Positions 11,931 through 64,000 of a DNA stretch of 64,000 nt are shown piece after piece. A model generated the notes under the pieces. The model ran no database searches and was not told the origin of the DNA. It saw nothing but the letters and a program-made list of their open reading frames with translations. The stretch is taken from contig NC_052475.1 of NCBI RefSeq assembly GCF_009730915.1, positions 3,162,001 through 3,226,000 of the forward strand. Reading direction: 5' to 3'. The translations under genes were made by a program, and so were the position numbers. The DNA is from Dioscorea cayenensis subsp. rotundata. Its lineage: Eukaryota; Streptophyta; Magnoliopsida; Dioscoreales; Dioscoreaceae. The stretch's first letter is position 1, and each line of letters opens with the position of its first letter.

Positions 11931-14900
11931 TTAAAATTTTAAAAATTGCTTCCTATACCTCATCGGAAAATTTGGCAATAATTCTTCTACAACTTGGAAA
12001 AGTATCAGAGGCCCTTTATCGCCATTGGGAGCACAGAAGTGATCTTCTGTATCAGACCCTGATTGTGCAAGACCGATCAAAGGCATGCTAAGAAAGCACT
12101 GAACAAACGAACGCAGAATTAACAAAGAGTGGTTTATTTTAGTTTTACCTCGGAGATCTACAGGATGTGATGGTTCACCTCTAAGATAAGATCTTGTTAT
12201 TGCATCTGTCTGTCTACCTTCAAGCTGCATAATTTTATCGAGCCAGTGACCAATGACTTTGTGATACAACAAGCTGGTCTCGTCACAGATATCTTGGATC
12301 AACTGATAAGTATTTTGACCATGTTCTACCAACTTGGAAGAAGCAATTACGACATTTGTATCTGCATCCTGATCAAGATTAGTTTGATTGATATTTTTTT
12401 GGCTATCGGTAGCAGCTCCCTGATCCATATTACTGGTGCGACGAGAGAATGATTCCCCAGTGGCCTCGAGTTCATTGTTTGTGATAGAATCACAAACATG
12501 TTGGTGATTCAATTCATCATTATAGGAATAATAGTCTCTATCAGACAATACAAAATCATTATTCCCACTTTGGTCGTCACTTTCCATCTCTTCTGCCGAA
12601 TCTTCATGGGTAGCAGTTTCAGGAAGTATGTCCAAGAAAAACTGTTTAAGCTGACAGCTCACATTAAGTACACATTCTATCTCATCTTCCTTTGCCTCTT
12701 TTGAAATCAAGCAAGCTTGGCGTCGTGACCTCCTATTTATCATAATTAGAATCCCGTGAGCTTCCACTGAGAGCTCTGTTTCATCACATTCAAACAAGTA
12801 CTCCATCAGATACTTGGTTAGTGTTGTCCTGAAAGTCTTCCAAGGGATTTCTGCTTTTGGATCTATCAAAGATTGCAAAGCTTTTAGTTCAGAATGTTTA
12901 ACCTTTTGAAGAGACCAAAGAGCTCTTAGAATATCATTCTGCAACTCCATTGTCTTTGGTATGAAGGGGAAAAATTCAGATATCATGATATCTGTACAAC
13001 CAGATTCATATTTGAGAAACAGAAGCATGACCGACAGTGCTTTTGCCAATGGTTTTGGTAGGTCCATGCCTTTCTTGAGTTTCGACATCATTTGGTCACA
13101 TCTCTTCCTGATTCGATCTTTGAACAACTCTTTTTTGCAAGAAATGGATACAGTAGGCGGGAATTGAGGGGCTGCTTTAATTCCCTTGAGCTTTCTGTTC
13201 ATCGCAAGTAAAGTCTGGATGGGCATTTCGTGAAGTCGATCCAATAGATTCTGAATGGACTTCTGAAGAGATTCACAGAAAGGTGTGCAAAGTGTCAATT
13301 GTTTCTCCCGAAAGTTATCTGGCTTCTGGAATATTTGTGAGAGCGTATTCAGTAGGGCAATGCGGCCACACAAATCTGATTCTGCAATTGTCTTTGGAAG
13401 ATATTCTTTTATAATCTTTTTCATCTGTTGACGAGTCCTGTCGAAAACTGACCTTGCTAGATGTTACAGTATTCGCTATAACAAGAAGTGCAGTGTTGTT
13501 CAAATCATCCATAATTGAATAGAAGGTCTTAAAAAATTGTGCCGTATTTTCCACATAAGTTCGCATTTGATGCTTGTCAAAATGTGCCAAATAATCCTGA
13601 ACTACATGGTATTTCCCTTGAGTGAATGATCCAAAACTTTTCTCTATTTTAGTTTTCACTGTCTCAAAGGAAACCTGAAAAGGTGCAACGATAAGTAATA
13701 AATTATGCTCAATAAATTCTGTTTCAAGCACAAAATAAGAAAGTGCGTCATATGCAACCTCAATTGAGTTTTTTTACTTAAATTTTAAGAAATTAGAAGG
13801 GGAAAAGAGAAAACTACTTGATGAACCAACTCAGCAACTTGTTTGTGATCTGATTTATTGAACTTTCAAAAGTTGATAATATAAACAATGGAACATATTG
13901 AAAGCATAAACAAGATGAACAAGTGCATTCTCTAATGCAAATCAAGTCCTTGACAACCACATCAAAACAAGGCACTATCTTTGATCTTGCACTTAAATTG
14001 ACCATTTTAAAAGGCACTGTGTTCTCAAATGAATTGAAGACCATAAGAAATCTTTTTTCCTTTAGCAGTTCGGGTATGAAAAAGCTTATTTACCCTTCAT
14101 ATGGAATGAAACATGTTGTACTCATCATAAATGCCAAAGACGAAGAGAAGATGTAAACAAACCAAATAGATGGCTTGAAGAAAAAATTACCTCGTCTCTC
14201 CTTACAAGTGATTCTGGCAAGAACCTACACCAACAATAAAAAAAGAAATTCATCATTTACCTTTAAATTAGACTCTCAACAAACTATGAAGGGTCATCAT
14301 TTTATTAGACAAAAGCCAATTATAGTCCTTGTAATTTACCTGACAAAATGTTTAATACAGTACATGTGCTTTGCTTTTAGGCCCATTTTTATCTTGCGCC
14401 CACTTTACACCGTATCAACATCTTATAAATTATTCTAAAATATTAAAAGATCTATTTTTAAAACAATTTATGAGATGCTAACATAGAAAAATCCAACCAA
14501 TTGGATAGGCCACACCAGGCATAAATTCGACTTTTACAGGGGAAAGAATAATCATATACTCAAATCATATGCCAAATGGCAGTCATGGGAACTCCTAGAA
14601 CAAAAGACAAAATAAAAGAACCAAACTGAACATTTCGGATGTACAAAAATGGAAGTGAACATTGGGGCAAATTATATTTCATACTGCAGGGAAAAAAAAA
14701 TTCAAACCTCTTACTTGGTTGCCAAAAATTTTGGTCTTTTGACTCTCTTGCGAGCATCTTCAGACATTGGCGTGCTCGGAAATCCCATCAGCCACCTGTA
14801 AAGAATTCAATCTCCAACCTCACATTTTGCAGACCATGAACAACATTATTGAATAAATATCATCATCAGAACTCCATCTGTCATAACACTACTAAGCTGG

Positions 14901-30631: not shown

Positions 30632-31152
30632 TGTTGTAAAATATAGGACCGAATAGAGAATACACAGAGAGAAAAATAAATGAAAAATAATCTTTGAAAA
30701 ATAAAAGAACACAAAAGATATACGTGGAAAAACCCCTAAATAATTAGGGGTAAAAAACCACTGAGCAAAGATGGAAGAATTTACTAAGTGGGAAAATTTC
30801 AAGAGTTACAAACTCTCTCTAATAACAAGGAGAAAACCAAAACTCTCTCTTATACTAGGAGATTGGACTAACTCTCAAAATATTTTTCCACACTTTTCTT
30901 CTCTCTCTAATTTCCTCTCACTCTCACTTGTTTCTTCAATTGGTTGTTCACTCAAGTTGTGTGTTGATGGAATGAGAACCTCACATATTTATAGGCCAAC
31001 TAAAACCACCATTTTCCTTTAACATATGGGCATTAATCCATGGGTTAAGATCATGGTTTAGGTAGCTGATGATTTAAGTAAGCCATTAGTTTCTTTTTAT
31101 GTGCCATTGGTTTTGGGTTGATGGTTTAAGAGGAGTTAGTTTTGGGCCAACA
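30632..31152 (-). repeat. Copia 3' LTR
   Basis: 521 bp, paired with 35987-36499. The two LTRs differ at scattered positions. In the first 140 bp many A-runs are one base longer here than in the other LTR. Confidence 0.93.
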
Positions 31153-31229
31153 ATTCTCCCACTTGAAGATTTGATTGAAAAACAATCAGATCTTCACACC
31201 ATTTTTCCTATCTTGCCATTCGATGTTGC

Positions 31230-31694
31230 TTACGTCTCCGTCAGACCACAAGAGGATCGACACCATATGAATCTATCAGTGTTGATTGCTTTTGTCATAA
31301 AGTCTGCTAGGTTGTCCTTGGTATGGATCTTTTGCATGTTCACTGTACCTTCTTCCACTTTCTCACGAACAAAGTGGTACTGAACTTTGATATGTTTTGT
31401 CTTTGAATGAAATGTTGGATTCCTTGCAAGATGCAATGCACTATGGTTGTCACAATATAGAGTGATGTTCTCTTGTTTATGCCCGAGTTCTTCCAACACC
31501 ATCTTCAACCATACTGCTTCTTTACTAGCTTGTGTAGCTGCTAAATACTCTGCTTCTGTCGTTGACATAGCCACGACTGACTGTAGTTTTGAAACCCAGC
31601 TCACAGCTCCACCTGCTACTGTGAACACATATCCAGTAGTGGATTTGCTTTTATCAAGATTATCTGCATAATCAGCATCAACATATCCACTCAC
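31230..31694 (-). pseudogene. Copia RNase H region
   Basis: The frame contains the copia RNase H hallmarks: ADYADNLDKSKSTTGY, STTEAEYLA and the YCDNHSAL motif. It is separated from the reverse transcriptase by a frame break near 31695-31782. It is part of the minus-strand copia polyprotein. Confidence 0.92.
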
Positions 31695-31781
31695 AGTAAA
31701 GTCAAATCCCCCATAACATAATGCAACATCTGAGGTTCCCTTTATATATCTAAGAATCCTCTTAACAACACTCCAATGCTC

Positions 31782-33330
31782 TCAACCAGGATTCGCCATG
31801 TACCGACTTACCACTCCCACTGCATGTGCAATGTCTGGTCTTGTACAGATTATGGCAAACATTAGGCTTCCCACTGCTGATGCATACGGTACTCGAGGCA
31901 TCTCCATCCTCTCTTCTTCACTGTTAGGACACATACTTGAGGATAACTTGAAATTAACAGAAAGTGGGGTAGAAATTGGCTTACAGTCTTGCATGTTGAA
32001 CCATCGCAAGATCTTCTTTAGATAAGTCTTCTGAGAAAGCCAAATCTTCCTATTATTTCTGTCTCGGTGAATTTGCATCCCTAAAATCTTGTTTGTCGGT
32101 CCCAAGTCCTTTATTTCAAACTCCCTAGCCAATTGTGACTTCAACTCCTTGATACGATCTTTGTTGAGGCCTGCTACCAACATGTCGTCAACATACAGCA
32201 ACAAGAAGACAAAATCTTCTTTTTCAAACCTCTTGGCATATGCAAAAGGGTCTGTATTGAATCTGCTGTATCCAAGGCTCATGATAAAGAAATCAAATCT
32301 CTTGTACCAATATCTTGGTGCCTGCTTTATACCGTACAGAGATTTGTTTAACCTGCAAACCAAGTTCTCTTTACCTTTTTCTTCAAAGCCTTCTGGTTGG
32401 AGCATGTAAATTTCTTCTTCAAGATCTCCATGAAGAAATGCAGTTTTGATATCTAACTGCTCAAGCTGCAAGTTAAATGTAGCACACATCGCCAGGACTA
32501 CTCGGACTGTTGTAAGTCGAACCATAGGTAAAAATATTTCGTTGAAGTCAATACCTTCCTTCTGAGCATATCCTTTCACCACCAATCTAGCATGGTAACA
32601 ATCTACATGATCATCACTATTGCGCTTGATCTTGTAGACCCATTTGTTGCCAATGGGTTTTCGCCCTTGTGGTAGCGACACCAGTTCCCATGTCCTATTT
32701 TTATGAAGAGATTTAATTTCTTCTTCCATTGCTGCCATCCACTGAGATGCATCTGAACTGTTCAGTGCTTTTTAAAGAGTTGATGGCTCTCCATCCTTAG
32801 TTAGAAAACAGTATGCAATATTACTCTCCATAATATAGTCAGAATGCCAACTTGGTGCCTTTCTTGTACGAGTTGACCGCCGAACTTCTGGAACTTCAGA
32901 TTCAGCTGGCTCTTGTACCTTGTGCTCTGGTGTAGCTTCAGCTTCTTTTTCTACCTGTATTGTTGTAGTCTCTGTGCTTTCACCATCTACTTGCTCTTGT
33001 TCTTTATCTTCTATAAAGATAACATCCATGCTGATTACAACCTTATGAGCAGTGGGATCCCATAAGCAGTACCCCTTAATACCATCAGCATATGCTAAGA
33101 ACATACATTTTCTGGATTTGGGATCCAATTTTATAGTTTCTTGGGTATTGTACATTACATATACAGGACTTCAAAATATATGAAGGTTTGAATAATCAAC
33201 TGGCTTACCAGTCCACATCTCCATCGGTGTTTTCAACTCGATTGCAATTGATGGGGCCCGATTCACCACATAACAGGCGGTGCTGGCTGCTTCTGCCCAG
33301 AACTTCTTGTCTAAGCCTGCAGCTCCCAAC
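31782..33330 (-). pseudogene. Copia reverse transcriptase and integrase C-terminal region
   Basis: The reverse transcriptase (32738-31782) starts near the WELV..P.GRKPIGNKWVYK block and contains the catalytic YVDDM motif. Upstream, 33155-32772 encodes the linker that follows the integrase, and 33330-33156 encodes the downstream part of the integrase core (DKKFWAEAASTACYV). Frames are interrupted near 32760 and 33160. Confidence 0.9.
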
Positions 33331-34042
33331 TGATATTCACTACGAAGAGAATTTAGTTGTAGAAGAACAAGTTTCTTATATAAAGAAACTTGAAAAACTC
33401 AGCCACTTGATCAGGAAAAATCACACAAGCACAAGAACACAAGAAAACAGCAAAACATAGAACAACAACCTTATAATAAAAATACCAGACTGTATATAAC
33501 TCGGTTGCCTCTGAAATTCAATACACACAGTGTTAAGATCACGATCAACAACTTCCTTATACAAACTTTGGACAAAAACTCACTCGTTAAAGCTGAAAAA
33601 TTCATACAAGAAGTGGCTTCAAGAAAAAACAGAAAAAACATTCTCACTAAACTTATAAAAACTTTAGAACAACCTTTTATACAAAATATCAGTGACTAAA
33701 ATGAAACAGGTGAGTCATAACTCACGCGTCTGAACCAAATCAACTCCACCGCTCTTCATCCAATCCACTACTCTGCCTCGAACTAACAATATTATATGTG
33801 ATTATCAAATCTCAGCCGTTCATTTCTTCCCAACTCTTTGCTTCTGCATCTGCCTCGAACTTACTCATTTTCCCTGATGAAACCCATCACATCCATTCAT
33901 TTTCTTCCAACCATCAACTAACGAATTTACCTGTAATTTGAACACTTGAAAAGACACAAAAGCCCTTCAAATCAAAACTAATACCACCAGGACAGTTTCA
34001 ACTTTTTCTCAGCATTCTTCAAATCTTCAATCATAACCAACA
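33331..34042 (-). mobile_element. Solo LTR nested inside the copia integrase
   Basis: This 712 bp segment begins TGTTGGTTATG and ends ATATCA on the minus strand. It is flanked by a perfect 5-bp duplication GTTGG (plus-strand CCAAC at 33326-33330 and 34043-34047). Removing it with one copy of the duplication rejoins the integrase frame without loss. It has no coding capacity, as expected of a solo LTR left by recombination. Confidence 0.82.
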
Positions 34043-34574
34043 CCAACATAGCTCTTGTTCTTTCCAACAGAGTTCTATTCATCCGCTCTGCCACTCCATT
34101 TTGTTGAGGAGTGTATGTTGTAGTGAACTGTCTTTTAACGCCTTCTTGCTTACAGAATTCATCAAATTCTTTACCAGTGTATTCTCCTCCATTATCAGTC
34201 CTCAAGCACTTGATCTTCTTGCCAGATTCAAGTTCTACCCGCGCTTTGTAAAATTTGAAGACTTGAAACACATCAGTCTTCCTCTTGATAGGGTACACCC
34301 AACATCTCCTGGAATAGTCATCAATAAATGATACAAAGTAATTTGCTCCTCCCAGGGATGTAACCGGTGCTTGCCACACATCAGAGTGATCCAATTCTAG
34401 AATTGCTTTGCTTCTAGAATTAGATGTGTTGAACTTGAGTCGATGCTGCTTGCTTACAATGCAATGTTCACAAAAGGGTAGTATTACCTTTGTGAGACCT
34501 TGAAGTAGATTCCTCTCTGCAAGAATCTTCATTCCTTGTTCTGACATGTATCTAAGTTTTCTGTGCCAAGTCAT
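34043..34574 (-). pseudogene. Copia integrase N-terminal and catalytic region
   Basis: Contains the zinc-binding H...CEHC block, the first catalytic Asp in FIDDYSRR, the second in LRTDNGGEY and the Glu in QNGVAERMNRTLLER. The frame is cut by the nested solo LTR at 34042. Confidence 0.92.
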
Positions 34575-34622
34575 TGTGCATCTTTCACTTGGACTACTTG
34601 TGGCAACTGAAGCTTCTCCTTC

Positions 34623-35930
34623 TTACAAAGTTTCTCCCTTCAGCATGTATAGATTTGCAGCTATCTTCTCTCTGTTCATGCATACAAGCTCTCCTCGAAT
34701 TATCTTCATGATCTTGTTTTGAACTTCAATTTTGCAACCAAGATCATCAAGTTGTCCTATAGACAACAAATTCTTCTTGAGGCCCTCCACATGTCGGACT
34801 TCTTGGATGGTCCGAACCGTGCCATCGTATATCTTCAGTGTGATGGTGCCAATACCAACGATCTTCAAGGCTTGATCTTTACAGCTGTATACAGATCCCC
34901 CAGAGATAGGTTCATAATGATGGAACCATTCTCTTCTGAAGGTCATGTGAAAAGTGGTTGTAATATCCAAAAGCTATACATCAGTAAATCTTTTATCTGA
35001 TGTAGTTGCTGCTTCACACACCATGGCCTCTCTATCATCTGAAATGTTTGCAATATTCCCTTGAGGATTGTAATCTTTCTTATTTAGACTCCAACAATCC
35101 TTCTTCAAGTGACCTTTCTTGCCATAGCGGTAACACTTGAAAGTCTTCTTACTCCTTGACTTTGATCTACCACGATTGTAGCTTCCACTGGATTCACGTT
35201 CTGTTGGTCTTCCTCTTGTCACCATTAAAGCCTCCGTTTGTTGTGAACTTGCTAGCTTGTCTTCCTTGTTCTTGCGGCGACTTTCTTCCTCCAGAACAGC
35301 AGCTGCAATATTGTCAAAGACTAGACTGTCCGTGGGGACATTATTTGTTAAGTTAATAACGAGTTGATCATACGAATCTGGTAGACTTTGGAGTAGAATT
35401 TCTGCACGTTCACCCGACTCTATTGTATGTCCCAATGATGTGAGTTGGGAAAATAGAGTGTTTAGTGTGTTCATGTGCCCTGTCACTGAAGTAGATTCTG
35501 CCATACGCAAAGTATAGAGTCTCTTCTTAAGGAAAATTTTGTTATGGAGTAACTTGGCCTCGTACAACTTAGTGAGGTGATCCCATATCTCCTTCGCTGT
35601 CTTCTTCTCCGCTATGCTTGATAGAACTCCATCATCAAGTGCCAGATGAAGATCGCCAGCTGCTCCCGTCCCATCTCATTCCACTTATCATCTTTCGACC
35701 TCGACTAGTCTTTCGGTGATGGCACTGAGCGATTGTCCTTCCTCGGGATTGCCTTTTATCTTTAGCTTCCACAGGGTAGAAATTACTCCCACCGAATTTT
35801 TTTCAAATCTCATATTTTTGCCGCCATTGCTTCTATTAGAAATTGCTGCAAGAGCGATGAATCGCCTTTTCAAAAGGTGAATAATTGTCCAACTTATTTT
35901 CTGATGTGGAGGATCCAGTAATAGTGGCAA
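34623..35930 (-). pseudogene. Copia gag, protease and pre-integrase region
   Basis: Pieces in different frames: 35930-35688 and 35567-34974 encode gag, and 34970-34623 encodes the protease/GAG-pre-integrase region (KKNLLSIGQL). The gag zinc knuckle reads CYRYGKKGHLKKDC. The second Cys of the normal C-x2-C is Tyr, another sign of decay. Confidence 0.85.
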
Positions 35931-35986
35931 CCACAGAACATACGATAAGTAGATATATTACACCAAGATCTAGCTCGGATACAACT

Positions 35987-36499
35987 TACTGTAAAATATA
36001 GGACCGAATAGAGCAATACAGTAGCAAAATAAATGAAAATTATGCTGAAAAATAAAGAACACAAAGATGTTACGTGGAAAACCCCTAAATAATTAAGGTA
36101 AAAACCACGGGCAAAAATGGAAGAATTTACTAAGTGGAAAAATTTCAAGAGTTACAAACTTTCTCTAATAACAAGGAGAAAACCAAAACTCTCTCTTATA
36201 CTAGGATATTGGACTAACTCTCAAAATATTTTTCCACACTTTTCTTTTCTTTCTAATTTCCTCTCACTCTCACTTGTTTTCTTCAATTGGTTGTTCACTC
36301 AAATTGTGTGCTGATGGAATGAGAACCTCACATATTTATAGGCCAACTAAAACCACCATTTTCCTTTAACATATGGGCACTAATCCATGGGTTAAGATCA
36401 TGGTTTAGGTAGCTGATGGTTTAAGTAAGCCATTAGTTTCTTTTGATGTGCCATTGGTTTTTTGTTGATGGTCTAAGAGGAGTTAGTTTTGGGCTAACA
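35987..36499 (-). repeat. Copia 5' LTR
   Basis: 513 bp partner of the LTR at 30632-31152. In element orientation it begins TGTTAGCCCAAAAC and ends near CCTATATTTTACAGTA. Confidence 0.92.
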
Positions 36500-36825
36500 A
36501 TTAAGTAATACAAAAATTTATCTAAAACATTAAAATCTTAATTTTACGATATATTTAAAAAAATTTATTTTTATTAATTTTTTTTTATCATCAAATCATT
36601 AATCATGCAAAGAGTTGCTTGCAAGATCACCAAAATAAATAAATAAACAAAAAAAGCACGTGATATAAAGGTCCAAAGATGTCTACCAAACGGACGGTTA
36701 AGATTTGAATCTGAAAATCAACAAGAAAACCGAATCTCAAAGCGGGTTTCACTGTTCTCACCTCCTCCGTTGAAAAGAGGTGGAAGAGCAACGGTGATGG
36801 TCGGAGTGGCGCTGCGAGCGAACCC

Positions 36826-50293: not shown

Positions 50294-53200
50294 AATACAG
50301 ACATAGTACTCATTAGAAGTAAATTTTAGTACAAAATTAGAAGAAATTTTACAGCCAATTCTGCAGCAGTAATGAAGCTTGAACCATGTGGAAATTCACT
50401 TCCGACAATTAATTCTCCAGTATAAGCACCCTACAACATTGAGAGAGTATACTGTAACCCATAGACATGGTTAAATTTAGTACAAGAAGAACACCTATGC
50501 AATTTCAATCATACAAAACATTTCAATCATCCAGCCTAATGAACTCTTTTGGCATTCAAATACAGGACATTTAGCATAAATCATCAATCCTAAAACATAA
50601 TTGGCTCACAAGTATACAACAGAAATCTTTTGGCATTCAAATACAATGTAACATTAATCCAAGTGTAAAGTAATAGAACATTTAGTCATATAATTATATG
50701 ACAAGTATAAATTCTTAAACATCAGGACAAATAATTTCAAATTCTTCATTAAAATGAAAAGAAGAAAAATTTAACAAGTAGCACTCACTCTTAAAACAGT
50801 GAAATAACTAGCATCAGAATTCCTCCTTGCTTGTGAAGTAGCAGCTACCTTTTCTTTTCCTTTGGCCTTTTTATTCTTACCTTGCTGTGTTGTCTGACCA
50901 CTTGCACCAATGGCAGATGATGTGGCCTACATAAATAGAATGAAATGAAGAAGATAACAAGAAATAAGGATTACAAAGCTGGTACTAATTTAATAAGAAC
51001 TCACAACATAATTTGTTTTGGGGCAGCCCCTCCTGTTGTGCCCTTCAGCATGACAAACTCCACACTTGAAGACTCTGCCTTTCCTAGACAATTTTGTAGT
51101 AGTGCCTTTTCCTTCCATAGGTTCTCTCCTCCTCTTCTTTTGTGGTCTATCGGGCATCCTCTTAGGTATAGATGGTAATAGTGGTCCTTCATCACTACTT
51201 GGCCAGAACATTCTACTTCTAACTGGATTAATATTGAATTGATATGACTTAAGATAAGTTTCTCTCTTGAACCAGTTAGAGACAAAATTAAGAGGATCTT
51301 CCCCATGGTATGCTATTGCAGATAGAGCATGCTGACAAGGGATTCCAGATTTATCCCATTTCTGACAAGTACAACTCTTGCTTGCCAACTTGACATCATA
51401 GCTTTCCCTGACATGCTGCTCTGGATCATACCACCACACCTCGTGACTTGCAGCACCATTCCAATCAACCTCCCATTTTCCACATTTGCTCCTTTCTTTC
51501 TCTATCTTTGCAATAATGTTAGGTCCACAATCTGATTTCCACTTGGCAACTTGTTCTCTTTTTGCAACTAATCTATTCATGACATATCGCCTGATTTCAT
51601 CCAGCATGGCAATCACAGGCTTGCTCCTAACTTCGACCAGAACTCTATTGAAAGTCTCGCACATGTTATTGTCAATTGTATCACACTTGACAACATTATT
51701 GAAAAATGCCTGGCACCATCCATTTATAGGCCACTTCTCTACCAAATCCTGAACTGCCATTTCCCCTCCTTTTATAGCTTTCATAGCTTTCATTCTATCC
51801 AACTGCTTCCGCATCTCAGGCTGGGAAGTGCATCTAGCAATTGTCTAGAACTGAATCTGCAATTCTTTACCTGGGTGTTGCTTACCCCATCGTGCATAAA
51901 TGTGTCTTGCACACATTCTATGCTCGATAAATGGCATAAGTGTTATAACTGCATGGATCAATCCCTGCAACATAATAATAAAGTTAGACAATGAAATTTG
52001 ATATAGCTTGGTAATTACTGAGGGATTTTTATTGAATTTGCATACCTTTTTGCATGTCACTAACAAGTGACCATCCAAGCCCCTCTCCTATGCAAAGATC
52101 TCGTACTCAAGTATTGAAAAACCATGTCCATGTCTCGAGTGGTCTCCTTATCCACAATTGCCCATGCAATGGGGAACATGTGATTGTTCCCATCTCTCCC
52201 TCACGCAACCAACAACTGTCCTTTCATTATTCCTTTTAAGAAGCATCCATCAACACCTATAAGCCTCCTGCAACCAGCTAAAAAACCTTCTTTAACAGCA
52301 TTCAGGCATATGTATACCCTTTGAAATATGGGTAATCCATTGGGGTTTTGCTTCTCAGATACAACCACTACATTGCTGCCAGGATTTGTTTCTTTTAGTT
52401 CCATTACATAATTATTCAACACCCCAAAATCTTCTACAAACTGTTGTTCAATCCTCCTAATTGCCAACCTTTTAGCATTCCTACAAACCTTATCAGTAAT
52501 GAATACTCCTAGCTCCTTCCTCACCATTGTCTTTAAATGTCTAGGCTTAATAAAAGGCATAGAAGCTATAATATCTCCAAATCTCCTAGCAACTGTAGAA
52601 GCTGTGACTCTTTTGTTCTTACTGGTTCCAAGAATGCATGAATGTTCAGAGACATAATGTTTAACAACATACATTTTTTTTTGTGCTGCACCATGAACAC
52701 AAAATTATCCAATCACAACCCTTTACAGAACATCTGGCTCTTACCCTCTTTCCATCATTTTTTACATACTTGAATTGAAATCCCTTCTTCATTGAGAAGT
52801 CAACAAGCTGATTCTTGAATATTTTTAGTTCTTTAAACCTAAGATCAATTCTAAAATCTTTGATAGGCTTGTGAGGATCAAAAAGGCTATTACTTGATTT
52901 GTGTCTGACTGCGTCATCTGCTTCAGAACCCTCGCTAGTGTCTGAATAACTTCTGGGATCTGAGGAATCAATGTAATCAGATTCATAGCCACTAACTTTT
53001 CCACTGTCAATTGCCTGTGATATATCTTCATTCTTAGAAAATTTTCCACCTTGAGAGGTCCTTCCTTCCTCCTCATTATCACTGTGATCAACATTCTCAG
53101 TTATTTTTTTCCCTCAATTTAATATATTTTGTGACTTGATGCCTAGCATTTTCCCTTTCTTCATCAACATCTGAACTATAGTTAATAACTTGCTCATCTG

Positions 53201-53621
53201 CCAGCATATTCTCATCATCTTCAAAACACTCCCTCTCATTGTCCTTCTCCAAACCCAAGTCAACATCATTTTCAGAATCAGATAATAGGACATTTGGCAT
53301 TGTTTTTTCATGGTCAACATCTAAAAACTCCACATAGATGTCTACTTTGCAAGTACTCCTTAATTGTTCAACTAAGACCATCACCCCCTCATCATCACAA
53401 ATCTCCTTCAATTCAACCTCCTTGTCTATGAAGAATAAATTCACTGCCTTTTTAATATCATAACCTAGCTCCTTAAGATCTCCTATTAAGTCCCAATAAC
53501 AAAGCTTATCTGGGTCCACAACAAATTCCACCATTGTTCCATTGTCATATCTAAAATCTCCATCTTTAACCAATTTCCCTCCATGATGGTAGGTAATAAG
53601 ATAAGTATCACAAGCAGCCAT
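50100..53621 (-). pseudogene. MuDR-type MULE transposase, broken
   Basis: The N-terminal MuDR domain starts at Met 53621 (MAACDTYLITYHHGGK), with an acidic linker to 53100. The DNA-binding and transposase core spans 52830-51850 (LIGVDGCFLKG, FIEHRMCARHIYARW). The SWIM zinc finger (CTCQKWDKSGIPCQHA) and a CCHC knuckle (CGVCHAEGHNRRGC) lie at 51814-50990. A Lys-rich tail probably continues in exons down to about 50100. Defects: one A too many in runs at about 53107 and 52674-52682, a stop at about 52203, and further breaks at 52040-52140. In this form it cannot make an intact transposase, although the two A-run shifts may be sequence errors. Confidence 0.9.
50255..50289. repeat. (AT)n microsatellite inside the MULE
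   Basis: An AT dinucleotide run in the 3' part of the transposase gene region. Confidence 0.9.
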
Positions 53622-53659
53622 ACTATTTGCAATAGAAAAAAAAATGCAAAACAATCAAA

Positions 53660-57885: not shown

Positions 57886-59309
57886 TATATAAATATCAAA
57901 TATCAAATATCTTAATTACTAGATTATTACCACAATGCCATAATCATATATATATATATATATATACACCACACACATGTATAATTATATTTTCACATAT
58001 GGCAAAGCTCATGACTGGCTGTTTAATCAAACATTTAAAAAACAATATGAATATTGTCTTCCCTGATGTTTCCATCTTGACTTGTTAGGGAGCAGTGGAG
58101 CACATGCACATGTAACCATAACAAACGGGCACGCAAGCTTGCTTCATGCCTTGAAAATGTTGAATTTAGTGGCCGCAAGCATGTGTTTTTTGAAATGTAG
58201 TGTTGTCTTGGTCAACCCTTTTTAAGTTTCCACTTTAGACTCTTGCTTGTTTGTCATTCAATGCAACTGTACTTTTTCAATGAAAATGCTTGGTTGAATA
58301 TTATTGTAATCAGGAGGAATAATGAATGGTCTTTAATTAAGTTATTGTGGCTTTCATTCATCTATCAAAATCTTTCAATATCCAAACCAGTCTTTGAGTT
58401 TTGTTATAATTAATTTGGAGAGGTAATGAGAATAAAGTTAATTATTATAACACAATCTTTGAGATACGTCTTATTAGAATTAATGAAAATTAAAGAAAAA
58501 AAAAAAACTCAAGCCGAGTAAAAATTTGGGTTGGTGACTTATGAGACTGCGGTCATTTTAAAATATTTATTATACAATGAAAGGGATTCTAGTTCTGATG
58601 GAGATGTTAATGAAATTTTTTTAAAGAAAAACTAAAAATAAATAAAACCGGCCAACATTATTAGTTCTAAAAAGACATCCAAATATTTATTTTGATTTTT
58701 GAAAGGCATAAACATGTTCTCTTTTATTTACAAACAATATAAACATGTTGATTTTTATCATTAAATAGCATATAAATCTATTCTTCGTTTTCCTTTTGAC
58801 ATCTCATATAAATAAAAAATTAATATAATCTATAATGCATATAATGAAATAAGGCCAATTAACACTATACAAACAATTATCAACATTTATCAAATATTTA
58901 TGTTGATCATAAATGCAATTTCCACCGCACGTGGATGTTGAAAACTTTTTGAAATTTTGGTTCATTGTCGGTGGTTACATCCTTTGGCATTTCTCATACA
59001 TTAACATTTAATAAATAGTGTTCATTCATTCCTACCAAAATCTAAGCCCTTCATTCCAACCAAAACATAGTCAACAAAAAATGCATGTCCCAAGAAATTC
59101 TCTACACTTGCTACACGCTTTCATATCAAGCAAGCGTGACTTATAAAAATAAAAAAAATTAAAATAAAATAAAATAAATAAGAGCATCATCAACCATCCT
59201 ATAAATTCTATAACTCAACCACAAACTCTCTCATTCATCTCCAATACACAATACAAAACTTCTCAATTTCTCTTGCTCTTCAATTTTTATTTTATTTTAT
59301 TTTTGAGTC
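57886..59309. other. Spacer and promoter of the peptide gene
   Basis: AT-rich with a TATAAAT at 59200-59206, about 110 bp before the peptide start codon, a reasonable TATA box. Nothing else was recognised. Confidence 0.5.
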
Positions 59310-59604
59310 ATGAATCTTTACAAGTTAGGATCAAAAGGTCGGAAGTTCTGTATTTATCGCTATTATTATCGTCATTGCTTTTGCGATCAGTACTAACGCC
59401 GCGAGACCGATATCAGAGTACGATAACGATGCCGACCGCGGTGATGATGTCACGGTTATTGTTGATTGTTTTAACGGTATTAGTGAGTTGGTGAGATATC
59501 CAAGCATGTATGAGAAGGCTAGAACAACTATGGCTTGTTGGATGGGGAAGTTGGCTTCTGGTCCTAGTCCTAAAGGGTCCTGGTCATTAGACCAAACTAT
59601 TTAA
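59310..59604 (+). CDS. PIP-like secreted signalling peptide precursor (two one-base excesses)
   Basis: A single-exon gene. The Met at 59310 starts a hydrophobic signal peptide (VFIAIIIVIAFAIS) cut near NAARP, followed by a variable Asp-rich pro-region. The C-terminal Ser-Gly-Pro-Ser-Pro-Lys motif is the core of plant PAMP-induced peptides (PIP/PIPL), which are processed and sensed by the receptor kinase RLK7. As written the frame is broken twice. The A-run at 59328-59331 has one base too many, so the ATG frame does not join the signal peptide. At GGG (59576-59578) one G too many turns the family ending GxGH-stop (TAG at 59588-59590) into a longer tail with a stop at 59602-59604. With both excess bases discounted it is a 92-residue precursor ending exactly on the family motif. 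Possibly apoplastic immune or growth signalling. Confidence 0.75.
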
Positions 59605-61249
59605 TTTTTGTGATTATGTATACCTTAATTAGCTTATTATGTTTAGTTTCATGGGTATATATTGATATTGATATATATAGTTCATGGTAGATCACTAGAT
59701 ATAGATGAATAAATTTTGTGTAAATTTATTTTAGAGAAATTTGATTTGTGTTTGTTGTGTATTTATTTTTCATTTATATATATGATTTTGCATTAATGAT
59801 TTTCTTTTCTTTTTTATTCTTATCTTTTGTTTGGGTTTTGATTGAATTGTTTGAATAAAGAAAAATAAGAGTACAATCCATGTAATGATAGAATTTATGC
59901 TTTATTCTCATTTCATTATGTGCAAACATTTTAATCAATCCTCGCTCCTATGCTAAAACTTTACAAAATTTATAATTATTGTATCTTTAATATTTTAAAT
60001 ATTTTTTTACATAACTTTAAATTTAGTAATAATATTACCAACAAAAAAATAATCTAGTTTTTATAAGCACAACAACCTAATCTCCTATCAGCAAGTGAAG
60101 TTATGGACAAACCAAGATCTCCTTTATATATTATTACAATAAATTACTTTTCTAATACATGATAAATAATATTTAATAAAATTATTATTTTTTCTTTTTT
60201 GGACAAAGGATAAATCCGAGTTAGCTAAGAGCATACATGGAGTTAGTATTTCACAAACCCTTACTTTGAGTTATTATGATTCGTACAGAAAATCCAAACT
60301 ACCACTGAGTTATTTGTCTTTATATATATTTTGAACTCATGACCGATTTTTTTATCTCCCCTTAAATAATTTTAGTTACTATTACTAGCCATCCAAACTC
60401 GTTGGCTTTGGCTGTCATTTGAAAATAATTTATAAAGAGAAAAATATATATATATCAAGCTTCTATAATAAATCCTCCTCCACACACATATGCACAAGAA
60501 TACTCGGACTCATAATTATATAAAAACAAAATATTTTCAATAATAATGCTAGATATGTATGTTAAAATAATTCCTATTATGTAGCTTTCATTGAAATGTC
60601 TTACTTTATTTGATTTTATTCTATATTTACAAATAAAAATGAGATTGAACCCAATCTAATGAATTAATTAGGTACAGTTATACACTGATGAAAAACCACA
60701 GTATAAATTAGATTACATTTTGGAGTTTAGTTCCCAAAAATTAATTTTTATTAGTATATTTTTTTAACTTAAAAAAATTAACATTAAAAAAATTGAAACA
60801 GTGCAATTTGGAGCTGAACTACTTTAAAACTGTACTCAAACCACTGCCTTAAAAGTTCAAGTTCCAGTTTCAAAGTATACAAAATCAATTTAAAACCAGA
60901 ATCGAAATCATACCGAGATATATTTTTCTTTTTTCTACACTAAATGATAAATACCCCCATTTAAAGTTTCCATCAGGGTAAATACAGATATGCATGCACT
61001 CACAAGCTCAATAACACTTTACCCTCATCTTTTTGTTCTCGAAATACCTCTGAAAACCCGACATTAATAAGCAAGCAAATGTTGATTCATGGGTGTATTC
61101 TAACCTAGCGTGATCTTTGAATTGAGATGCCAAATAAACAACGAACTACTTTATTTATTGCAGGGATGGTCATAATTATTAAAAATACATACTCAGCAGC
61201 ATGAGAACCTAAAATACCAAACACGTCCAAGCAATACATAAAACACCAT
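59605..61249. other. AT-rich spacer
   Basis: 3' regions of the peptide gene and of the chitinase-like gene. No coding or repeat structure was recognised beyond short AT runs. Confidence 0.5.
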
Positions 61250-63053
61250 TTAGCAACACAGTTTATCTCCAGGTTGCACACCAAACATGCCACAATAATC
61301 AAGATAATAACCTACACGGCCTTTGACATCTTTAGGAAACCGGCCATTGCACACACCGGGGTTAATAACTCGAATGGTGTCACCGAAACCTTCGCCGGAG
61401 ATGAAGCGCTTGTGGACGTAAGTCATCCAGAACCAGAGTGATGCTTTGAAGCACAAGACCGGATCCTGTGAGATAAGCTCCGGCGAGTTAAGGCCATCGA
61501 AGCCGAGCTTCTGGCCGGCGAGACCATAATTGTAATTCCATGTCAACTGAAGAGGTCCTCGGCCGAGGTACTTCTTTTCCGGGTTGCATGGGTAGTCTGG
61601 ATTCTCCTCACAGTATACTTTGCCATTTACTTGGTTAATGTAGCAAAAGTCTGCCAATATTTGTCTAATGTTAATTATCAATGTATTCATTTTGTAATTT
61701 ACTTTATATTATTCTAATATTTTTAACTAAGTTTTCACTATATATATATATATATGAAAAATAAAAAGTTGATAATTTTTCTTTTTTTAAAAAAAGGGTC
61801 AATACTAAAAAAAATTCATGGCTTAACATCATTTGGCTCCACGGTGAAAATTAAAAGTGAAACATTCAAAGATCTTAAGTTACTCAATAAAAATAGTGAT
61901 AATAATAGATTAGCGATTGTGAGTGAAGATTCGCAGTCTTGTTCTTAACATGTGGCTGTAACCTAAATTATATGATGTACTCTATATGTAGTACTATTAT
62001 ATGAATATATCTAGAAAATAAAAAGTAATATTTTTTTAAAAAAATAAGCCAAAACTAAAGGGCTAAAAACTCAAGCGGTAATTGGCTCCACAGTGAAAAA
62101 TTACGAGTGAAACATTCAAAAGAAAACAATGGTGATAATGGATGAATCACCGGTTATGGGTGAAGGTTCACAGTTTTAACCCTCGTGATTGACATATGGC
62201 TAGAATCTAAGTTATATGATGTACATGATATATGACTCTATACCAACTACCAAGCATTTGTATATGTATGTAAACTGTGAGTTCAACCAGGCATGTGAAA
62301 TGGTGGTTAATCTAATGTGTCCTACATGTGAGTGTCACTGTCACAGTAATGTATTCACTAACTAGCCCATATCTGTTGTTTGTCTGTAGCTCAAAACCCA
62401 CGTGTCCCAAATCCGATTCAACTATTAAAGATGGCGAGTTGTTAATTAATTAATATATTGATTTATTTAAATGAATAAACAAATAATTAAATAAACTAAT
62501 AAAGAAACACGTCACGTGAAGAGATACTGCTTGATTTGGCAATCCTTTGTGTGGCGATGCGAATGCAGTCAATATTAAAATAATAATAATAACAAGTTAA
62601 AAATCAATAAATTAGAAAGAAAAATAGAAATTTAAAATTTTTTTAAAAAAAAAAGAACTGACGGCCGGTTTCAAGAGTGGCGTGGGCGAAGAAGGCGGCG
62701 ATCTCGCGGAGGGAGTCGTCGGGGGAGCCAGCGCGGGCGAAGTCAGGGTAAGATTCTAGGGCTTTGAAGAAGGCGTCGAGAGTGTAGAAACCTTTGCCCT
62801 CGCATTTGGCCGAGGCTTTGGAGATGATGCCGTTGAAGAACTCGGGAGTGACAATGTCGGCGACGGTGAAGGCATTGTGGTGAGTGGTGACGGTGGATGC
62901 ACGGAGAGGGAGGAGAAAGGAGCGTTGTTGATGATGATGATGATGATGATGATGGAGTTTGAGAGGTTTGGGGAAAGTGATAGGGTTTTTTGGGAGGAGG
63001 AGGAGGGGGTTGGGGATGCTTGGTGCTGTGATTCCTGTGAATGAGAGGGCCAT
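61250..63053 (-). CDS. GH19 chitinase-like protein, class IV type catalytic domain
   Basis: Two exons, 63053-62663 and 61650-61250, split in phase by a 1,012 bp GT-AG intron, giving 263 residues with no frame break. The GH19 domain (about 66-263) resembles class IV/II enzymes: FFNGIIS, REIAAFFAHAT, GRGPLQLTWNYNYG and ASLWFWM. The general acid Glu is kept at 128 (LETGH). The second catalytic Glu, nine residues on in class IV (normally INEING), is Gln137 here (INQVNG). No chitin-binding (hevein) domain is present. The N-terminus is not a normal secretory signal. It is Ser/Pro/Leu/Lys-rich without acidic residues, includes eight consecutive His, and looks like a plastid transit peptide. Family membership is certain; activity and location are open. 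Confidence 0.9.
61775..62240 (+). repeat. Two diverged copies of a ~200 bp unit in the chitinase intron
   Basis: Segments 61790-61990 and 62035-62240 share TTGGCTCCAC.GTGAAAA, GAGTGAAACATTCAAA, GTGATAAT and ATTATATGATGTAC in the same order and orientation, so this is an old tandem duplication inside the intron. Confidence 0.7.
62930..62955 (+). repeat. (ATG)n microsatellite coding for a His tract
   Basis: The repeat is read on the minus strand as CAT codons and gives the poly-His stretch of the chitinase-like N-terminus. Confidence 0.9.
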
Positions 63054-64000
63054 GATGGAGAGATTGAGAGATGATGGAGAGATGGATTTTGAAGGAGAGA
63101 ATGAGGATTGGTTGGTTCAGACTCCAGAGTGGGTGTCACATCACATGGGAATAGCTAAACAGGGAGGGAGGGAGGGGGGGATCAATTATTGTTTGCTTTC
63201 TTGTTTTATGTTCGTGGGTGACATGGGGATTGGGAATCAAATATTATTTGTTTTCTAGTTTATGACTAGGTTGGGTATTTTTTTAAAATATATTTATTTA
63301 TTTATTTTATTTTATTTTATTTACGGTGAGAGTCTACTACTCTTTGTTGATAATTAAAATCTTAATAATTTTTTTTACTTGTAATTACGGGCTTTAATAA
63401 TAATTTAGCATTAATTGGCATGTGAATTTTTTATATAATTTAAAAAAATAATAATAATAATAATAATGTAATGGGAGAATGGGGCTTAACCCATCGGTTC
63501 TCAAATGCCTTACAATTGCAAATACACAGCTCCCTTTCATAATTGCATGGCGAATATAATAAATTTTTTTTTATTGTTTAACTAACAGTCGGGACACATG
63601 ATAAAACTTAATAACTCGGATACGCTATGATAACACATGAACACAAAACTTGTTCACCTATTATATATATATATATAAGAAATCTATGGGTATCCAACTA
63701 TCAACAATTAGATCCCAATATTGATTAATAATAATTACTGTATTAATTACTGTTTCATCAATGTTATCGTTGGATCTTGATCGTTGGATCGAGATCCAAC
63801 GATTAATAATGAACATCCATAGATTTCTTATTTATAAACATTTAAACATAAATGGTCATCTCTATATATTACATACATATGGATCTAATGGCTAATAATG
63901 AACGTTTATAGATTTTCAAAGATGAATGTTCCTATATATATATATATATACAACTATAAAACTTTGCACCCTCCTTTCGCTGGGTGCCTTCTTATACCCA
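63054..64000. other. Promoter of the chitinase-like gene and AT-rich DNA
   Basis: The first 100 bp are the likely 5' leader on the minus strand. The rest is AT-rich with TTTA and AAT runs (63288-63315, 63449-63468) and the hairpin element listed separately. Confidence 0.5.
63675..63831. mobile_element. Small hairpin element (MITE-like)
   Basis: Inverted ends ATAAGAAATCTATGG (63675-63689) and CCATAGATTTCTTAT (63817-63831). An inner perfect palindrome ATCGTTGGATC-GA-GATCCAACGAT spans 63780-63803. Related sequence (TTAATAATGAACnTTnATAGATTT) recurs at 63890-63920 and near 29455-29480, so it belongs to a small dispersed family. Confidence 0.55.

Follow-up and report, generated by a model that had tools for sequence, protein, structure and literature searches.

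The locus at 59310-59590 on the plus strand of the window, the whole 64-kb stretch of DNA that was analysed, is by its sequence features a broken homologue within a known family, the PIP1-type precursors with one SGPS; assignment to the PIP1 type follows from the presence of one SGPS only. As written, the locus makes no PIP peptide, since none of its frames on its own specifies a secreted precursor that terminates in the motif. The proposal of a hidden working gene, made in an earlier sequence-only reading, is therefore not borne out. The elements of the precursor reading are distributed over three frames as follows.

59310-59590, plus strand: PIP-type precursor reading, three frames in succession, approximately 92 residues by hand codon count
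59310-59342, plus strand: ATG and first residues MNLYKLGSK, in the frame from 59310, which itself continues to a stop at 59396
59329-59393, plus strand: span allowed for the first frame change, both frames being open there
59333-59336, plus strand: run of four A, the simplest place for the first frame change
59329-59604, plus strand: open body frame of 91 codons, with core, AARP, acidic pro-region and KLASGPSPK, then SWSLDQTI and a stop
59344-59400, plus strand: signal-peptide-like core SSVFIAIIIVIAFAISTNA, from a hydrophobicity ranking of 15-residue stretches
59551-59577, plus strand: LASGPSPKG, the body-frame stretch around SGPS, whose codons are at 59557-59568
59569-59575, plus strand: span required for the second frame change, seven bases separating the SGPS codons from those of GxGH
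59576-59590, plus strand: GPGH and a TAG stop, in the third frame, adjoining the body frame

In the open reading frame listing, the frame that starts at the ATG encodes 28 residues, MNLYKLGSKGRKFCIYRYYYRHCFCDQY, followed by its stop. The signal-type core, predicted from hydrophobicity, lies in a different frame from the ATG and is followed by STNA-ARP. The body frame is translated as DQKVGSSVFIAIIIVIAFAISTNAARPISEYDNDADRGDDVTVIVDCFNGISELVRYPSMYEKARTTMACWMGKLASGPSPKGSWSLDQTI up to its stop; it contains SSVFIAIIIVIAFAISTNAARP, followed by the acidic pro-region and KLASGPSPK, and an Arg is present after the core, within AARP. The body frame is preceded by a TAG at 59326-59328, and no ATG is found between that point and the hydrophobic core. 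The GPGH-TAG element is correctly spaced from SGPS but one frame over, and the tail of the body frame beyond the motif, SWSLDQTI, consists of eight unrelated residues. Of the extent originally proposed, 59310-59604, the start is retained but the end is not: the PIP reading itself stops at 59590, and it is the body frame that terminates at 59604. The signal-type region, pro-region, SGPSP motif and stop exactly after Gly-His that had been described are all present across the three frames. It had also been stated that ORF finding lists only an unrelated frame here, which is incorrect, because a stop-to-stop listing displays the 91-codon body and a TTG-start listing its last 38 codons. The expectation that automated annotation would miss the gene does hold for ATG-only finding.

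Both frame changes are in the same direction, each equivalent to the gain of one base, modulo 3. The first was placed near the A-run at 59333-59336 because MNLYKLGS then joins the hydrophobic core. The runs at the two changes are short, four A and three A. Two frame changes stand in the sequence in place of the single continuous intronless frame of PIP/PIPL genes, and for this reason the locus is filed as a broken homologue and not as a working member.

The hallmarks of the family are set out in passages of several published papers. Arabidopsis PIP/PIPL precursors are described in part of PMC4526919 as beginning with an aliphatic signal peptide, which is followed by a conserved Arg and then a variable region, and as carrying S(G,A,V)PS and, at the extreme C-terminus, GxGH; they are 69-108 residues long, and their genes have no introns. 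Similar hallmarks are given in a section of PMC4154866, where the precursors are secreted and C-terminally processed, hydroxyproline at position 6 raises the activity of the peptide, and RLK7 is the receptor; at least 11 Arabidopsis prePIP homologues, seven annotated and four unannotated, were counted there in 2014. Dependence on the co-receptor SERK3/BAK1 is reported in part of PMC10667265, where AtPIP1 is printed as RLASGPSPRGRGH and StPIP1_1 as RLPSGPSPRGPGH. AtPIP2 is printed as VKHSGPSPSGPGH in an excerpt of PMC10704477, which divides the family into two clades, and it carries two SGPS motifs (PMC4154866 and PMC4526919, in part).

At the level of sequence, identification as PIP-type is supported by SGPS, by GxGH followed by a stop, by the signal-type core with an Arg behind it and by the total size, so that the family name originally proposed stands; the hand-counted length of approximately 92 residues falls inside the range of the Arabidopsis PIP/PIPL table. 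When KLASGPSPK plus GPGH was compared by hand with the last 13 residues of known members, 10/13 were identical for AtPIP1, 10/13 for StPIP1_1 and 9/13 for AtPIP2. The locus resembles the PIP1 type (AtPIP1, At4g28460; potato StPIP1_1) in its predicted signal-type N-terminus, the Arg after it, the variable region, the one SGPS and, in the adjoining frame, GxGH directly before the stop. It differs in that its reading requires three frames, in carrying K in place of R at two peptide positions relative to AtPIP1 and StPIP1_1, and in length, AtPIP1 having 72 residues and StPIP1_1 76. The C-terminal residues held in common with AtPIP2 include SGPSP and GPGH, whereas AtPIP2 has two SGPS motifs and one was seen here. 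IDA/IDL precursors, which share the size, the signal-type N-terminus and SGPS, were also considered. In IDLs, SGPS is followed by (R/K)(R/K)HN and a variable tail (described in part of PMC4526919, as is the CEP ending); here it is followed by PKG and then by SWSLDQTI (PKGSWSLDQTI) or, in the next frame, GPGH, with no (R/K)(R/K)HN, and this family was ruled out. CEPs share the GxGH end but lack SGPS and terminate in SPG(I/V)GH; they were likewise ruled out, as the locus has SGPS and its end reads PKG/GPGH.

A chance resemblance is most improbable. The pattern of S(G/A/V)PS, 4-8 bases and GxGH-stop occurs once in the 64-kb window (both strands) and in 0 of 150 windows of 64 kb simulated with a first-order Markov model; with an exact spacing of six bases between SGPS and GxGH-stop, it occurs in neither the window nor the 150 simulations. 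The remaining features, furthermore, are in the correct order and of the correct size. The SGPS-type core alone does arise randomly, with seven occurrences in the window (both strands) against a simulated mean of 3.2, and the GxGH-stop tail alone is present once against a simulated mean of 0.3. The hydrophobicity of the signal-like core is matched by 87 of the window's 52012 stop-free stretches of 15 residues. The codon-usage score of the body frame is 15.3 bits, compared with -3.9 and -55.7 bits for its neighbours, weak support given that 32% of 973 open 75-codon stretches score equally well. The five 60-base bins that cover 59320-59619 have a GC content of 0.35-0.53, against 0.17-0.30 in the three preceding bins and 0.12-0.27 in the seven following bins; this local rise is not the only one, since 0.32-0.42 is also reached further upstream, at 58900-59139. 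Chance would be consistent with the lack of a match to the body in Pfam (0 families at E up to 1, although Pfam may hold no PIP model) and in the PDB (0 chains at E up to 10). A six-frame scan of the window for a second PIP-like locus yielded one other SGPS, at 51180-51191, which lies in an open frame lacking GxGH, and no further GxGH-stop. In tblastn of the body against the window only the self match was obtained, the next having an E of 1.2. No relative of the body was found among prokaryote and viral contigs, which is expected for a plant gene and so uninformative, and GPSPKGPGH, ASGPSPKG and SGPSPKGPGH had no match in paper text, a scope that excludes figures and supplements. TATAAA at 59200, AATAAA at 59708 and a W-box-type word at 59069-59074 were dismissed as promoter or polyadenylation evidence because such words are too common, with densities in the window of 2.1, 2.3 and 0.4 per kb per strand, respectively.

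It is also very improbable that the gene works as written, whether the body frame has a different first exon or start or ribosomal frameshifting occurs, with or without the SWSLDQTI end. The body frame alone does possess a hydrophobic core, a pro-region and SGPS, and an upstream exon spliced to an AG just before it is possible from the DNA. However, a new first exon would leave the second break, with its seven bases of room only, while frameshifting would require two separate events in one short message; the Arabidopsis genes of the family, moreover, are without introns in the passages of PMC4526919 already cited.

The origin of the two breaks lies chiefly between error and mutation. Base-call or assembly errors are narrowly and tentatively preferred over real mutations, the two readings being about even. 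In favour of error, the conserved recognisable parts are intact except at the two breaks, and both breaks lie in the insertion direction. Against this, two breaks within 0.29 kb are dense and the adjoining runs are short, and short runs are not where homopolymer errors are commonest. The same two observations, independent breaks in close proximity and short runs, favour real loss, in which a PIP1-type gene inactivated very recently, or an allele without function, would yield no peptide product; this reading falls a little short of an even chance. The shared insertion direction speaks against it, as decaying DNA usually gathers more small deletions than insertions. An older pseudogene would be expected to show substitutions and stops too, whereas the signal core, the Arg that follows it and the motif show no further damage. 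A more specific form of this reading, a very recent real loss that spared the rest of the conserved parts, perhaps with working alleles still segregating, is unlikely. Losses within the family are frequent, 94 having been inferred against 60 duplications for 128 precursors in 23 species (PMC10704477, in part), which is in favour of real loss.

Frame changes elsewhere in the window served as controls. The gene at 11931-13773 on the minus strand has a 510-codon open frame and no Pfam or PDB identity; a Fanconi-type assignment would be an unsupported guess. Its best-scoring frame switches between the 120-base windows starting at 13533 and 13473, near 13450, by one extra base in the same direction as the PIP breaks and close to a run of four T. 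A similar switch may be present in this gene, an alternative being an intron in the 149-base overlap of the two frames, which holds the donor-like word GTCAGT; with that possible intron and no identity, the gene is weak as a control. Pieces of a MuDR-type transposase at 50990-53654 on the minus strand were recognised by Pfam (DBD_Tnp_Mut and SWIM). Within 53654-52201 they contain two frame changes (53113-52661) in the same direction, beside A-runs of seven and nine, weak evidence of error because transposon frames decay neutrally. Nine exons of other genes, 3734 nt in total, are each in one frame, and 6/9 have a Pfam match above the cut-off; having been chosen as open frames, they give no fair error rate.

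Regarding the surroundings, we infer that the window is plant nuclear DNA. Pfam curated cut-offs were passed by pieces of a GH19 chitinase, a PPR gene, a TBC gene, a SPARK-domain gene and a bZIP gene, and the window also holds Copia-type (RVT_2) and MuDR-type transposon pieces (Pfam). The GH19 chitinase, at 61250-63116 on the minus strand, comprises two or more exons, with Pfam E-values of 1.8e-31 and 6.7e-11; on visual inspection its N-terminus, which contains a run of eight His, resembles a plastid transit peptide more closely than a secretory signal. The Copia-type element at 30754-36502 displays an RVT_2 match and flanking direct repeats that are 94-96% alike, and its minus-strand pol pieces are mostly in one frame, split by stops.

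The locus most probably descends from an intronless single-SGPS PIP1-type plant precursor gene; by analogy with the family, a working copy would produce a secreted precursor of approximately 92 residues. That precursor would be cut near its C-terminus to give a proline-hydroxylated peptide of approximately 13 residues ending in GxGH, which would be sensed by an RLK7-type receptor kinase with a BAK1-type co-receptor and would thereby amplify immune signalling. Since neither the family nor its mode of action is new, there is little biological surprise, and a broken or mis-sequenced homologue of such a peptide family is of modest interest. With one or two indels, real or not, a signalling-peptide gene of fewer than 100 codons escapes ATG-based gene finding, and whether error or loss is accepted at such loci alters the counts of immune-peptide families across plants. 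If recent loss is the true explanation, the locus would constitute a natural knock-out that tests redundancy within the PIP family.
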